DNA of 64,000 nucleotides from contig PERU01000001.1 of NCBI GenBank assembly GCA_002928965.1, positions 124,001 to 188,000 on the forward strand, read 5' to 3'. The notes under the pieces are model-generated. The model saw only the letters and a program-made list of their open reading frames with translations. It had not been told where the DNA came from and ran no database searches. Below, piece by piece: positions 5,282 to 11,823 of this stretch; position 1 is the first letter of the stretch; the number at the start of each line of letters is the position of its first letter. The DNA comes from Methylomonas sp. Lineage in GTDB: Bacteria > Pseudomonadota > Gammaproteobacteria > Methylococcales > Methylomonadaceae. Both the position numbers and the translations under genes were made by a program.

Positions 5282-6514
5282 TTAACCGAAAAACCAATAA
5301 GTCACCAAAATAGCGGCAATAATCCCGCCTAGGTCGGCAATGATGCCGCACACGGCGGCATGACGTATTTGTTGAATGTTCACCGCGCCAAAATACACCG
5401 CCAGCACGTAAAACGTGGTCTCTGTACTGCCCTGTACCACCGATGCCAAGCGTCCGGCAAAGGAATCGGCGCCGTGTGCCTGCAGGGTGTCTATCATCAT
5501 CGCCCGCGCGCCGCTGCCGCTGAACGGCTTCATCAATGCGGTTGGCAGGCCCTCGATAAAACGGTTGTCGATACCACCATAATTGACCAATAGTCTCACA
5601 CCATCGGTGATCAACTCCAGCGCGCCGCTGGCCCGAAACACGCCGAAGGCCACCAGCATGGCCACCAGATAGGGGATGATGGTGATGGCGGTCTGAAAGC
5701 CGTGTTTGGCACCCTCTATAAACAATTCGTAGGCATTCAAGCGTTTGTAGGTTGCTGCAGCGATGAAGGCAATCACCAAGCTGAACAAAATCACTTGGCT
5801 GACCAGTGCCGATTGCAGCAGCATTTCCGCCTGATCAAGATGAGCGAAATAAGTCAATATGCCGCCGACCAAGGCCGTGATGCCCATCCAGTACGCCAGC
5901 ACCACTCTGTTCAACAGATTGATTTTCTGCGCCATAGCGACGGCCAGCAAGCCGATCAGCGTCGACATATAAGTGGCGATCAATATCGGGATGAACACAT
6001 CGGTCGGATTGGTGGCGCCGAGTTGTGCCCGGTAAGCGAATATCGTCACCGGAAACAGCGTTACCGACGAGGTATTGAGTACCAGAAACAGAATCTGCGC
6101 GTCGCTGGCCCGCTCAGGATGGGGGTTCAGGGTCTGCATTTCCTGCATGGCCTTGATGCCCATGGGGGTTGCGGCGTTGTCCAATCCCAGCATATTGGCA
6201 GCGATGTTCATCACGATTGCTCCCAGTGCAGGATGATTATTCGGAATTTCAGGCATCAACTTGCTGAAAAGCGGGTTCAGAGCTTTAGTCAACAAATCTA
6301 TGAAGCCGCTATGCTCGCCAATTTTCATAATACCCAGCCATAAGGCCAGCAGCCCGCTCAATCCGAGTGAAATCTCGAACGCGGTTTTCGACAGGCTGAA
6401 CATCGCATTCATCAGATCTGAAAACACCTGAGTGTCGCCCAGCACCAGCAACTTGAAGGCGGCGGTGGCGAAAGCGCTCAGGAAGAAGAATATCCAGATG
6501 AAGTTCAGCAACAA
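5282..6514 (-). CDS. Fused SpmA/SpmB-like nucleoside-recognition membrane protein
   Basis: A 410-residue polytopic protein with two Gate/nucleoside-recognition domains. The first half has the SpmA-like NIAANMLGLDNAATPMGIKAMQEMQ; the second has the SpmB-like PFSGSGARAM and VVQGSTETTFYVLAVYFGAV. In Bacillus these are two spore-maturation proteins; in many Gram-negatives they are one polypeptide of unknown transport role. Multiple hydrophobic helices place it in the inner membrane. It lies 13 bases after purB on the same strand, so it is likely co-transcribed; a role in nucleotide or nucleoside handling is only suggested by that. Confidence 0.85.
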   Translation of the reverse strand: MLLNFIWIFFFLSAFATAAFKLLVLGDTQVFSDLMNAMFSLSKTAFEISLGLSGLLALWLGIMKIGEHSGFIDLLTKALNPLFSKLMPEIPNNHPALGAIVMNIAANMLGLDNAATPMGIKAMQEMQTLNPHPERASDAQILFLVLNTSSVTLFPVTIFAYRAQLGATNPTDVFIPILIATYMSTLIGLLAVAMAQKINLLNRVVLAYWMGITALVGGILTYFAHLDQAEMLLQSALVSQVILFSLVIAFIAAATYKRLNAYELFIEGAKHGFQTAITIIPYLVAMLVAFGVFRASGALELITDGVRLLVNYGGIDNRFIEGLPTALMKPFSGSGARAMMIDTLQAHGADSFAGRLASVVQGSTETTFYVLAVYFGAVNIQQIRHAAVCGIIADLGGIIAAILVTYWFFG

Positions 6515-6527
6515 CCTGTCCTGGTGT

Positions 6528-7898
<1,371 letters not shown>

Positions 7899-7917
7899 TT
7901 AGAAGATATATTGGTAA

Positions 7918-8610
7918 TTATTTAAAAACCGAGGCTAGCCAATTGCTGAAATTAGCAGCGGTTTCAATAGTTAATAGGTTTTCGGATAAGGCATCCGGCA
8001 ATCTTATGCCGGGCTCTTTTTGCCAGGCTCGCCATGTATAGATTCTGGCTTTCGATAAATGAATGTCTTTAAATAGCTTGGTGGGTAAGTTATTTATCGA
8101 GAGGTCTGCGTGAGCTAATAGGGCTTGTTGTTCTGTGCCTGTTGAAATCATTTGCTCGACAAAATTTTCAATCATTCCGTCATTTTGGTGGTCGGGCATG
8201 ATCCATAAGCCAATATCGGGTAAGCCATTTAAATGTTTGAAAATGTCACCTTTTTGATAATTAGGCTGGTCCGATATTTCGTAGAGGCCGTAATTATGTT
8301 CTTGTAAAAAAGTGTTTATTGTTTTGGTGATTAAGTCTCGTCTTGAAGTAACTCCACCATTGTTGTCTGGCGCAAAATCAGCATCGATTATAATGGCTAA
8401 TTTATCAATATCACCATTACGCAATCGTTTAATTTCTGTGGGTAAGTGGTCAATCAGGTTCGTCCAGCCGTTTCTTTGTGAGCCTCTGTCCTTCGGAGTG
8501 ACGATGGTTATTTCTGGCACATCGACATCAGTGATACCCAGTTTTTTGCAGAATGCCTTAACAAAGGCTCGATCATCATTGCCTTCAACCAACAATATCT
8601 TTTTAGACAT
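7918..8610 (-). CDS. DUF3226/TOPRIM-like protein paired with an OLD-type ATPase
   Basis: A 230-residue protein of a TOPRIM-like family (DUF3226 by pattern). TOPRIM motif I is visible as LLVEGNDD with Glu9, and motif II as IIIDADFAP with Asp76 and Asp78. These are the metal-binding Glu and DxD of topoisomerase/primase/OLD nuclease folds. Its ATG overlaps the stop of the upstream ATPase (TAATG), a sign of translational coupling. In PARIS (AriA/AriB) and AbiL-like systems an ABC ATPase is likewise paired with a small TOPRIM protein. A defence role is an inference from this pairing. The gene is clearly AT-richer than purB, which begins 31 bases further on. Confidence 0.78.
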   Translation of the reverse strand: MSKKILLVEGNDDRAFVKAFCKKLGITDVDVPEITIVTPKDRGSQRNGWTNLIDHLPTEIKRLRNGDIDKLAIIIDADFAPDNNGGVTSRRDLITKTINTFLQEHNYGLYEISDQPNYQKGDIFKHLNGLPDIGLWIMPDHQNDGMIENFVEQMISTGTEQQALLAHADLSINNLPTKLFKDIHLSKARIYTWRAWQKEPGIRLPDALSENLLTIETAANFSNWLASVFK

Positions 8611-9755
8611 TATCTGATCTCAAGTTCTGATGCAGTTATGGTTTGTAACTCGGCCTCGTCGTAAACGGTAGCAATGATTTTCCCATGATCGCTGGTGAGT
8701 TTGCTCTTTGAAACTTTTAGCAAAATGCCATCTTCCGGACTTTCAACGGCGGATTTAGTAAAACTTTCGATACAATCCCAACTGTGGGTTGTTGCAAATA
8801 CTTGAATATTTAGATCTTTCGCTAATTGGAAAATGATGCGCCAGACTTCTTCTTGAACGCTGTAGTGCAAGCCGTTTTCGAATTCGTCAATCAGTAAAAT
8901 TCCGTCTTTTGCTGGAAACACAGAAAGTATCAGTTGCAAGATACGCGACATGCCATCGCCCATGCTACTGAGGGGGATTCTGTTTTCTACATCTTTAGTC
9001 TTAACAATTGCAAAACGGCCGTTGTGGTTTTGATGAGATTCAATGAATGCTAGCTTTTCAATACGGTCATCAATTAACTGCAAAGCTTTTATGACAATAT
9101 TTTCATATGGGCTTAGTATAATTTCATCCCAAAGCGTAGAAAGTTGTTCTGATGATAAAAAGTCTGGCGGAACATAGCTTAATCCAAATGAATAAAGTTT
9201 AGAGTTTAGGAGCCAAAAAGTAGAAAACTGCGGTTTGGTTTCTTCTAATTCGTGAATTGTGTTCTTGCCTGATTCTAACGTTATGCGTATTGCTGGATAT
9301 AATAGTGCTGAATCTTTAGCATTGGATAAGTCAGATTTTACAATGACTCTGCGGCGAGTTGAAAATGGCTGGCCATCTTCGTCAATATCTGATTCATCTT
9401 TAAAGTAATAGAATATATATTCTATTTTTAAAAGGGTTTTCTCATCGGAGGACAAAGTTATATTGATATTGTCCTTTGAAGGGAATTTTCGATTGGGAAA
9501 GAGGTTTTTTAGTCCTGCCCAGTTTTTTACGTTAGTGTCAACAGGTGAGCGATCCAATCCATATGTTTCGTCATGTCCATTCAGTATTGTGCCAAGTAGC
9601 TCAAGATTTGCGTCGCCCGCATAGATGCGTAAAGCCTCTAGAATAGAGCTTTTGCCGCTATTGTTTTTGCCGACAATCAAATTCACGCGGCCAAGTTTTG
9701 GGATTTCCAAATCCTCTAACATGCGGAAGTTTTTAATGCGTAAATTGGTTAGCAT
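8610..9755 (-). CDS. AAA15/OLD-like ABC-type ATPase (putative defence component)
   Basis: A 381-residue SMC/RecF/OLD-like ATPase. It opens with LTNLRIKNFRMLEDLEI, typical of AAA15/AAA21 proteins. Walker A is GKNNSGKS (residues 29-36), a degenerate ABC signature is SSMGDGMSRIL, Walker B is ILLIDEFENGLH and the His switch is ATTHSWDCIE. There is no TOPRIM domain in this chain, which is shorter than class 1 OLD or GajA; the TOPRIM function is supplied by the coupled downstream gene. The start has AAGG 8 bases upstream. The gap to the XRE gene stop is about 60 bases and contains the palindrome CAGTACTG at 9787-9794, a possible operator. Expected to be a cytoplasmic sensor or regulator; function unproven. 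Confidence 0.8.
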   Translation of the reverse strand: MLTNLRIKNFRMLEDLEIPKLGRVNLIVGKNNSGKSSILEALRIYAGDANLELLGTILNGHDETYGLDRSPVDTNVKNWAGLKNLFPNRKFPSKDNINITLSSDEKTLLKIEYIFYYFKDESDIDEDGQPFSTRRRVIVKSDLSNAKDSALLYPAIRITLESGKNTIHELEETKPQFSTFWLLNSKLYSFGLSYVPPDFLSSEQLSTLWDEIILSPYENIVIKALQLIDDRIEKLAFIESHQNHNGRFAIVKTKDVENRIPLSSMGDGMSRILQLILSVFPAKDGILLIDEFENGLHYSVQEEVWRIIFQLAKDLNIQVFATTHSWDCIESFTKSAVESPEDGILLKVSKSKLTSDHGKIIATVYDEAELQTITASELEIR

Positions 9756-9814
9756 TGTTTACCTTATGTATAATTACTCTTAGGCACAGTACTGAAATGA
9801 CGAGAAAACTATTT

Positions 9815-10090
9815 TCACCAGACATTTAATTGGTCGAGATTAATTCTTAGAATAGACGCTATTTTCTTTAGCATGGTTTTGTTAGGATTTTCTAGGCTTT
9901 CAAGTTCGGTATATTCAGCTTCTGAGATATTTAAACGTGTGGCTAATTCGTTTATTGATAAGTGAAAATATTCCCGCCAAGCTTTAATGGGTGTAATGTC
10001 TTGTTTAATAACAGCGCCAACCACCTCATTAGGAATAGTGGTATTGTCAACAGTATGTTCTATCAAATAGTCGATATAAGGAATTACCAT
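9815..10090 (-). CDS. XRE/Cro-type helix-turn-helix regulator, probably 5'-truncated
   Basis: Ninety-one codons from the first ATG. ITPIKAWREYFHLSINELATRLNISEAEYTELES is an XRE helix-turn-helix of the kind found in antitoxin-like regulators, which typically read PVRAWREHRGLTQAELA. Upstream of the ATG the same frame reads GGYRVLFEFDDIKDSPTF straight back to the mnmA stop (10148-10150) with no ATG, GTG or TTG. That stretch looks like the normal N-terminus of this family, so the gene appears to have lost its start. No toxin gene is adjacent. It could regulate the ATPase/TOPRIM pair or be a leftover antitoxin. Confidence 0.65.
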   Translation of the reverse strand: MVIPYIDYLIEHTVDNTTIPNEVVGAVIKQDITPIKAWREYFHLSINELATRLNISEAEYTELESLENPNKTMLKKIASILRINLDQLNVW

Positions 10091-10147
10091 AAAAGTTGGG
10101 CTGTCTTTGATGTCGTCAAATTCAAATAATACTCGATAGCCACCGAT

Positions 10148-11248
10148 TCAATCCGATTCATTGTACTTCGATTCAATAATCCCACCACCCAAACAAATCT
10201 CGCCCTGATAAAACACCACCGATTGCCCCGGCGTAATGGCTCGTTGCAGCTCGTCGAAGCGGACTTTGACACGGGTGCCGCCATGCAGCGGCTCGACGAC
10301 GCAATCCTGATCGGGCTGGCGGTAGCGAGTCTTGGCTGCGCAGCGGATCGTTTCGGTCAAGGGCTGGTTGCCACACCAGTCCAGTTGTCCAGCTTCCAGT
10401 GTGTTGTGCAGCATCAAGGGGTGGTCGTGACCTTGGCCGACGATCAGCACATTATTATCCAGGTCTTTTTCCAACACGAACCACGGTTCGTCCGGTGCGT
10501 CCTTGACGCCACCAATCCCTAAGCCCTGGCGCTGGCCCAAGGTGTAATACATCAGGCCGTGATGCTGGGCTATGTATTGGCCTTCCGGGGTGCGCATTTC
10601 GCCGGGTTGGTGGGGCAGGTAGCGTTGCAAAAATTCCTTGAATTTGCGTTCGCCGATGAAGCAGATACCTGTGCTGTCTTTTTTGCGGCTGTTGGCGAAG
10701 CCGGCCTTGTCGGCCAAGGCGCGGATTTCCGGTTTGTGAAGGTGGCCGATGGGGAATAGGGTGCGGGACAGGGCTTTCTGGCCCATGGCGTACAAAAAGT
10801 AACTTTGTTCCTTGTTCGGATCCAGGCCTTTCAATAATTTAAACTCGCCGTCTTGTTCTCGCACGCGAGCATAATGGCCGGTCGCGATGTATTCGGCGCC
10901 CAGGTCTTCGATGGCATAGTTCAAAAATGCCCTAAATTTGACATGTTTGTTACAAAGAATGTCAGGATTCGGTGTGCGGCCGGCTTTGAATTCCGACAAA
11001 AATACTTCAAATACCTCGTCCCAGTATTCTGCGGCGAAGTTGACGGTCTTTAATTCTATGTCCAAGGTGTCGCAAACCTGCTGTGCATCGGCCAAATCCT
11101 GCATCGCGGTGCAATACTCGGTTCCGTCGTCCTCTTCCCAGTTTTTCATGAACAAACCGGTGACCTTATGGCCCTGTTCTTGCAATGTTAATGCTGTCAC
11201 GGAAGAATCGACGCCGCCGGACATGCCGACGATGATGTGCTTGCTCAT
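10148..11248 (-). CDS. mnmA: tRNA-specific 2-thiouridylase MnmA
   Basis: A 366-residue enzyme that makes s2U34 in Lys, Glu and Gln tRNAs, using sulphur relayed by TusE. The PP-loop is [13 protein letters not shown]. The two catalytic cysteines lie in [12 protein letters not shown] and [10 protein letters not shown], and GHYARV is conserved. The C-terminus normally ends near [10 protein letters not shown]; here extra residues ESKYNESD precede TGA, consistent with an altered 3' junction next to the accessory insert. The start overlaps the nudJ stop by 4 bases (ATGA). Confidence 0.96.
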
Positions 11249-11700
11249 GTTAAATCTAAAAATGTTTGCAATAGTGTTAGCGGGTAGCGCTGACCTTTTA
11301 AGTATTCATCCACGCAAATTAAAACCAGTGGGCTGCGAAGTTGATGCTGCTTGGCTAAAATTGTTTCCCGATCTAGCCAATGAGCAGTGATAATATCCGC
11401 GTCCAGTTGATACTGCGGGTTAAAACTATGTACTGTGCCGGTAAAACAAAATCTGACGAAGCTTGGATGATCCGGTGTTTTTCGCCACAACTGAACGGCT
11501 ATCAGCGCCTCGGGTTCAAAGTGCCAAGCGGTTTCTTCCAAAACTTCGCGTTTTATGGCGCTAATTAAATCTTCACCTGCTTCAAGATGACCTGCAGGTT
11601 GATTGAACGCAATGCCATTGTCAGTTGTCTCTTCAACAATTAGAAATAAACCATTTTTCTCTATGACAGCAGCTACGGTAACGTGAGGTTTCCAAACCAT
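11245..11700 (-). CDS. nudJ: NUDIX hydrolase, NudJ type
   Basis: A 151-residue NUDIX pyrophosphatase. [22 protein letters not shown] and [13 protein letters not shown] match NudJ of E. coli. The Nudix box runs from GHLEAGED to REVLEET, with the REXXEE glutamates present. LRSPLV and KGQRYPL near the C-terminus also match. NudJ hydrolyses nucleoside di- and triphosphates and thiamine-pathway HMP-PP. As in E. coli, it sits immediately before mnmA with overlapping stop and start, so the pair is translationally coupled. Confidence 0.9.
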
Positions 11701-11763
11701 GATGCATGATAAAGTCTTAAAGGAGGCGCATTTTACGCGAAATGTTTTTTATGTGGGTAAAGA

Positions 11764-11792
11764 TTGAAATTTGACTCGTTAACCGCTATTTT
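11764..11792 (+). promoter_or_regulatory. Candidate sigma-70 promoter for clpS-clpA
   Basis: TTGAAA at 11764 and TATTTT at 11787 are spaced 17 bases apart, 5/6 and 4/6 matches to consensus, upstream of the clpS ATG at 11824. A ribosome-binding site TTTAGGA precedes the ATG. Called by eye only. Confidence 0.35.
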
Positions 11793-11823
11793 AAAAACAT
11801 GTATCAATAGGTAATTTAGGAAT

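Follow-up and report, generated by a model that had tools for sequence, protein, structure and literature searches.

An ABC-type ATPase coupled to a DUF3226 TOPRIM protein: a putative anti-phage module at the mnmA-purB site of Methylomonas and on small plasmids

Closest described systems and the Methylomonas gene pair

Systems that combine an ABC ATPase with a TOPRIM domain, such as OLD, Gabija, PARIS and AbiL, are common, and the coupling of sensing to the nuclease is understood for few of them. In PARIS, a hexameric ATPase is described as holding three nucleases and freeing them upon binding of a phage protein (PMC12409363, PMC11455837). The PARIS nuclease, AriB, cuts tRNA (PMC12409363), and the detection rule given for the system asks for a DUF4435 partner (PMC9122126). 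The active site of OLD is reported to contain the ligands of metals A and B, a basic residue and an S/T ligand of metal B (PMC7049728). Further candidates are catalogued as PDCs, described as unpublished putative systems from a guilt-by-embedding screen, with experimental validation still awaited for most of those that are common (PMC12988326).

The gene pair described here lies in the window, a stretch of 64,000 nucleotides from Methylomonas sp. (contig PERU01000001.1, positions 124,001 to 188,000). Its features are as follows.

8610..9755, minus strand: AAA_15/RecF-type ABC ATPase of 381 aa (PDC-M38A), presumed sensor and nuclease holder
8970..9623, minus strand: variable central part of the ATPase, spanning residues 45-262, exchanged between strains and presumed to be the sensor region
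8613..8621, minus strand: codons of the C-terminal Glu-Ile-Arg, adjoining the ATPase stop codon
7918..8610, minus strand: DUF3226 protein of 230 aa with a TOPRIM fold (PDC-M38B), presumed nuclease, with E9, D13, D76, D78, E148 and K187

The two ORFs have one base in common. The ATPase stop codon TAA (8612-8610) and the TOPRIM start codon ATG (8610-8608) form the junction TAATG, so that the ORF coordinates bear out the overlap described in an earlier note on this DNA. A search with Rfam at gathering scores over 6400-11800 matched no RNA component.

The earlier note knew of no named system with this pairing, which has to be corrected: the pairing is already catalogued as the PADLOC candidate PDC-M38. 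PDC-M38A matched the ATPase with 449.7 bits (residues 1-381, model positions 1-383 of 383) and PDC-M38B matched its partner with 223.5 bits (residues 1-230, model positions 1-219 of 219). With the window included, 19 of 19 DUF3226 proteins matched PDC-M38B and 18 of 18 ATPases matched PDC-M38A. A literature search, with preprints and supplements outside its scope, found no paper naming PDC-M38 or DUF3226, no experiment on the pairing and no report of the C-terminal [E/D]-x-R tail or the exchanged centre described below. To the PDC-M38 entry the present analysis adds the tail, the location at the mnmA-purB site, the occurrence on plasmids and the exchanged centre.

PARIS is likewise composed of two genes, an AAA_15/AAA_21 ATPase and a separate TOPRIM protein, and the AriA models matched the ATPase with 104 and 98 bits. 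However, the partner matched Pfam DUF3226 (1.3e-47), and a search at E up to 1 did not match it to DUF4435, which agrees with the family assignment made in the earlier note; the host genome gave no DUF4435 match either. The ATPase also matched the PADLOC model AbiLi over its full length with 218 bits, compared with 450 bits for PDC-M38A, but its TOPRIM partner had no AbiLii match at E up to 1. Among 19 aligned partners, one matched AbiLii weakly (5e-4). Because the partner is DUF3226, membership of PARIS and AbiL was ruled out. The resemblance to PARIS, AbiL and split OLD systems proposed earlier stands as kinship with the split-OLD/PARIS type, and not as membership of PARIS or AbiL. Separately, contig C72 of the same genome (L172/L001) carries an AbiLii match with one internal stop beside another AAA_21 ATPase, which ends in Gly-Lys-His.

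OLD and GajA share with the pair an ABC ATPase joined to a TOPRIM, most of the two-metal residues and a place among the better fold matches. OLD Classes 1-3 carry ATPase and TOPRIM in one chain, whereas two ORFs are present here. Gabija has a UvrD/PcrA/Rep-type helicase next door, whereas the next downstream gene here is purB. The MADS models mad3 (54.6 bits with the ATPase) and mad4 (E 9e-4 with the TOPRIM protein) were matched weakly, far below PDC-M38. The combination of an ABC ATPase with a TOPRIM protein is of a known kind; what sets this pair apart as a variant among characterised systems is its DUF3226 partner, together with the tail and the exchanged centre.

Conserved features of the two proteins

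DUF3226 was present in 8 of 61 relatives, including 7 of the 37 genomes of the genus (its own genome counted), and in 11 of 397 genomes of the phylum, nine of them over the cut-off. All 20 distinct DUF3226 genes over the Pfam cut-off, from 16 genomes, were directly preceded by an ATPase gene on the same strand; this count leaves out the sub-cut-off matches G183 and G184. The two genes overlapped at 17 of the 20 loci and were separated by 6-14 bases at the other three; one locus (L053) consisted of two tandem pairs and one (L046) was broken. Compared with the relative G018, dN/dS was 0.09 for the ATPase and 0.13 for the TOPRIM gene, and values across four comparisons ranged from 0.09 to 0.14, so that both genes are, as judged from codon changes, under purifying selection. 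The repeated gene order together with the low dN/dS against G018 places the pair beyond chance. A search with the ATPase alone gave matches in 10 of the 61 relatives; in G022 and G032 the match covered only about 80 residues and DUF3226 was missing.

The ATPase matched AAA_15 (5.7e-32) and AAA_21 (8.3e-24) in Pfam. Walker A (G29, N31, G34, K35), Walker B (D290, E291), the His switch (H324) and H297 were invariant among 18 aligned ATPases, and the complete AAA15 motif set noted previously was thereby confirmed. The broken locus L046 is absent from this alignment and from that of the 19 partners, and L055 is absent from the ATPase alignment. The predicted ATPase model (pLDDT 78.9) matched SMC/Rad50 heads (Z up to 16.8) and PtuA (Z 16.0).

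Of the 36 ATPases paired with DUF3226, 35 had [E/D]-x-R as their last three residues, whereas none of 47 control frames did. In the remaining one, L056, EVR stands two residues short of the end. The 36 pairs take in the near-copies L154/L155, L101/L102 and L049/L050 and the broken-gene loci L046 and L102. L161, with the ATPase end DLRGAN, was left out because its second gene was not recognised by Pfam; including it gives 35 of 37. The control frames comprised 28 AAA_15, 9 PtuA, 7 PARIS-like, 2 RloA-like and 1 AbiLi-like sequences. The 28 AAA_15 frames came from the 30 best loci, and one or two of them are other P-loop proteins. The DUF4435 control drew on 9 selected loci out of 20, of which 7 yielded a frame; unlike the pair studied here, these seven ATPases from separate-gene DUF4435 loci lacked the [E/D]-x-R end. 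In the alignment of 18 ATPases, whose mean column identity is 23%, 15 columns are invariant and the tail Arg is among them.

The possibility that the tail merely reflects a Shine-Dalgarno sequence imposed by the overlapping genes was weighed and rejected. In the 35 loci, the final Arg used all six codons (AGA 13, CGC 7, CGT 7, AGG 4, CGA 1, CGG 1), and the tail was also kept at L047, L052 and L055, where 6-14 bases separate the genes. Because six codons are used and the tail is kept without gene overlap, the Arg is read as selected in the protein. The acidic residue was encoded by GAG at 22 loci and GAA at 8 (Glu), and by GAT at 3 (Asp); the Glu, being mostly GAG, may come partly from the ribosome-binding site. 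Model confidence was 74 for ATPase residues 371-380 and 54 at residue 381.

Two size variants were also seen. Three IMG/VR contigs (L162, L163 and L164) encode a 143-residue mini-ATPase ending in EVR, with the Walker A region nearly abutting Walker B, and no TOPRIM partner was found in their ORF list. The ATPases of L056 and L161 are about 730 residues long, with an N-terminal extension that looks ParB-like by eye, and a DUF3226 or TOPRIM-like gene comes next.

The DUF3226 partner also matched OLD-like_TOPRIM below threshold (2.8e-4). E9, D76, D78, E148 and K187 were invariant and residue 13 was acidic (D/E) in the 19 aligned partners. The E9/D76/D78 site of the 230-residue protein, proposed earlier from its sequence, therefore held across these partners, and the TOPRIM motif aligned in profile and structure comparisons. 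E9, D/E13, D76, D78, E148 and K187 fit the residues by which OLD binds metals A and B, and its basic residue, as set out in PMC7049728; the S/T ligand of metal B, which that account places two residues before the later glutamate, was not conserved as S/T across the 19 partners. The predicted TOPRIM model (pLDDT 73.9) was closest to PH0156 (2p62; Z 12.6, rmsd 3.0, 189 residues aligned), and matched the OLD C-terminal regions 6nk8, 6p74 and 6njv with Z 9.7, 8.9 and 8.7, respectively, within a range of 8.4-9.7 for OLD. Retron Eco2, GajA and AriB gave Z 7.5, 7.4 and 6.5, respectively, and values under 8 perhaps reflect a common arrangement only. Foldseek placed OLD chains first (E 0.006-0.026), with no match at E 0.001 or better. 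The sequence alignment with AriB was weak (E 0.15), and its register sets AriB E26/D30 on E9/D13; E26 is reported as catalytic and E26A as the Toprim mutant of AriB (PMC12409363). The partner is presumed to be a TOPRIM nuclease that retains the greater part of an OLD-type two-metal site, in agreement with the predicted fold.

The mnmA-purB site, exchange of the ATPase centre and mobile carriage

The pair lies between two core genes which we take, by eye, to be mnmA and purB. The surrounding features are as follows.

10148..11248, minus strand: mnmA, the core gene bordering the variable site upstream
10091..10161, minus strand: ParE-like frame remnant overlapping the mnmA end, with the start kept, the interior lost and the frame broken (judged by eye against the intact L065, L066 and L081; lower limit approximate)
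9815..10090, minus strand: HTH protein of 91 aa, antitoxin-like, left from a ParE/HTH pair
6528..7886, minus strand: purB, the core gene bordering the variable site downstream

The GC content of the pair is 39.2%, compared with 53.6% for mnmA, 54.1% for purB and 47.2% for the window, and a GC content as low was found in 3 of 311 window stretches of equal length. mnmA is a tRNA modification gene; any connection with tRNA-cutting effectors was put down to coincidence.

Of 34 genus loci fetched, 31 had both flanks (G019, G020 and G032 had no mnmA in the stretch); G003, G010 and G033 are outside the fetched junctions. The 31 Methylomonas junctions held the pair in 5 genomes, Septu in 9, a ParE/HTH pair in 3, PDC-S57 in 2 and PDC-M28 in 1, and were empty in 11, where only 34-156 bases separated the flanks. 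One genome per cargo type was scanned with PADLOC or Pfam and the others were typed by similarity to it; for Septu, the scanned locus gave 422 and 254 bits in PADLOC, and the other eight were 60-66% (PtuA) and 42-60% (PtuB) identical. The cargo genes have the same orientation as mnmA and purB, and at several loci they begin across the mnmA stop codon. In relatives the site also holds known or candidate defence systems, contrary to the lack of a defence neighbourhood that the earlier note had named as counter-evidence. Outside the genus, 2 of 6 junctions held other cargo, which was not recognised as defence by eye. The ParE/HTH toxin-antitoxin pair whose remnant survives in the window is intact at the site in L065, L066 and L081. 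Behind the pair of L081 (1417-2787) lies a gene for a 456-residue protein that matched neither Pfam nor PADLOC at E 0.001.

In a tree built from mnmA and purB, flanking genes which may themselves recombine with the cargo, site occupancy required at least 12 changes, and occupancy by the pair, scored alone, required 4. Since 12 changes are fewer than in all 200 of 200 shuffles (mean 17.3), occupancy partly follows descent; the 4 changes of the pair were equalled or beaten in 134 of 500 shuffles. The six TOPRIM genes beside mnmA (five site pairs and G010, whose contig ends before purB) formed one clade with support 97, so that the pair is an old resident moving between strains, not a repeated new arrival, and the local picture is partly vertical. 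Purely vertical inheritance within the lineage, which the earlier note had named as evidence against a defence role, is contradicted by the other genera and the plasmids that carry the pair as well.

Septu, which shares the site in nine relatives and whose PtuA is matched by the ATPase model, differs in its effector: PtuB is an HNH protein, whereas the DUF3226 partner had no HNH match. Its ATPase is also variable in the centre. Among the nine PtuA alleles of the site, mean pairwise identity was 14-43% in columns 51-200 and 95-98% in columns 276-375.

A comparable pattern was found in the pair. Over the central segment (residues 45-262 of the window ATPase), G006 and G024 were 93% identical in DNA, and 54% identical over the TOPRIM gene. 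G006 and the window, in turn, were 50% identical in the centre, 86% in the C-terminal part of the ATPase and 90% in the TOPRIM gene. mnmA and purB were 84-86% identical among the three. Because its centre is near that of G024 and its TOPRIM gene near that of the window, G006 is a natural chimera, as if ATPase sensors had been swapped between strains. The central segment would then be the part that senses phage.

The pair is also carried by plasmids. A protein search of plasmid records found the TOPRIM protein on 9 and the ATPase on 145, and carriers of the pair belonged to Acinetobacter, Citrobacter, Plesiomonas, Klebsiella, E. coli and Salmonella. On the Plesiomonas plasmid the pair lies fairly near phage tail genes, and in one Acinetobacter plasmid copy the ATPase is split in two pieces. 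The version from Klebsiella was found by DNA search on 144 of 72,556 plasmid records, 138 of them from Klebsiella and 138 at identity of at least 99%; the Klebsiella records are mostly near-copies and not independent events. With the E. coli plasmid copy as query, 9 of 5,426 E. coli genomes matched, all on plasmids and 8 of them near-identical, and the Citrobacter copy as query matched nothing in E. coli genomes.

Three plasmids of 3.8-4.7 kb from Klebsiella, E. coli and Salmonella (L154, L155 and L156) carry the pair as near-sole cargo beside replication or mobilisation genes. Besides the pair, the Klebsiella plasmid (4,167 bases) holds only rop and an HTH gene, the E. coli plasmid (4,693 bases) holds rop, an HTH gene and a small YdgH-type gene, and the Salmonella plasmid holds rop and mobA.

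Six IMG/VR contigs carry the pair, and on one of them (L159) genes for a phage integrase, Mrr_cat and Schlafen AlbA_2 surround it; three scans of viral contigs with single or close queries gave no match. Neither the TOPRIM protein of the window nor that of Citrobacter matched any of 50,697 phage records. The ATPase had two matches there, on contigs labelled Acinetobacter phage. In one of these, L158, labelled Acinetobacter phage MD-2021a, glyQ and glyS adjoin the match, and the contig looks like bacterial chromosome.

Proposed mechanism and alternative explanations

The pairing, the shared site, the plasmid carriage, the OLD-type site and the predicted fold make the defence reading of the pair well supported, and the recurrence of the pair, its site and its plasmids speak for the defence role that the earlier note had suggested. 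On these grounds and by analogy with PARIS, from which holding, sensing, release and arrest are proposed, we consider it rather probable that the pair is an anti-phage module of an ABC ATPase and a separate TOPRIM nuclease. The ATPase would assemble as an ABC-type oligomer and keep the DUF3226 protein inactive. Its variable central segment would recognise a product of the infecting phage, and an ATP-driven change would then free or activate the DUF3226 protein as a two-metal-ion TOPRIM nuclease. The freed nuclease would cut a vital nucleic acid, the first guess being tRNA (as AriB) and the second DNA (as OLD), and the cutting would arrest the growth of the infected cell. Several observations count against this reading: the TOPRIM protein had no match among the phage records, its likeness to AriB is weak in sequence and in fold, Foldseek reached no match at E 0.001, the S/T ligand of metal B is missing, site occupancy partly follows descent with the six TOPRIM genes in one clade, two junctions outside the genus hold cargo not recognised as defence, and G022 and G032 have partial ATPase matches but no DUF3226.

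A further, tentative proposal is that the system is modular: a constant [E/D]-x-Arg lock would engage the TOPRIM protein and an exchangeable centre would be traded by recombination, so that a single nuclease would serve many triggers. On this view, the small ColRNAI plasmids of Klebsiella, with few other genes, would be dedicated to phage defence.

The ATPase could instead gate a DUF3226 nuclease that degrades invading DNA, as in OLD or Gabija, and not host tRNA. The nearest folds among characterised nucleases are the OLD C-terminal regions, K187 sits 39 residues past E148, comparable to the far-downstream lysine of B. pseudomallei OLD, and the invariant H297 is comparable to the D-loop His of TsOLD (both as described in PMC7049728). 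However, the separate chains resemble PARIS, a tRNA cutter, the S/T ligand is not conserved, and a substrate cannot be read from fold kinship. We regard this DNA-degrading activity as possible, at well under even chances.

A toxin-antitoxin or plasmid-maintenance function, with DUF3226 as toxin, the ATPase as antitoxin and carriage on small plasmids as addiction, appears unlikely. It would account for the pair as near-sole cargo of small plasmids and for the use of the chromosomal site by a ParE/HTH pair as well, but at the Methylomonas site the pair takes turns mainly with Septu and PADLOC candidates, strains exchange the centre of the ATPase, and in PARIS, according to PMC9122126, either gene can be deleted without toxicity. 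Competition between plasmids, or an anti-plasmid function in place of anti-phage defence, is less likely still: the pair does occur on small Klebsiella and larger Acinetobacter plasmids, but its site-mates in Methylomonas include Septu, reported as antiphage in E. coli (PMC13096335). A housekeeping RecF-like recombination or repair pair travelling by chance, to which the match with SMC/Rad50 heads would be suited, is very improbable, given that no more than 7 of the 37 genomes of the genus and 11 of 397 from the phylum have the pair and that it alternates with defence genes at its site.

If the pair is the anti-phage module proposed, the natural chimera, with a different putative sensor beside an almost unchanged nuclease, would make recognition by the ATPase directly testable. 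The module would also provide a testable function for the uncharacterised DUF3226 family and for small Klebsiella plasmids that carry almost no other genes, and the mnmA-purB junction of Methylomonas would be a place to seek new defence genes.
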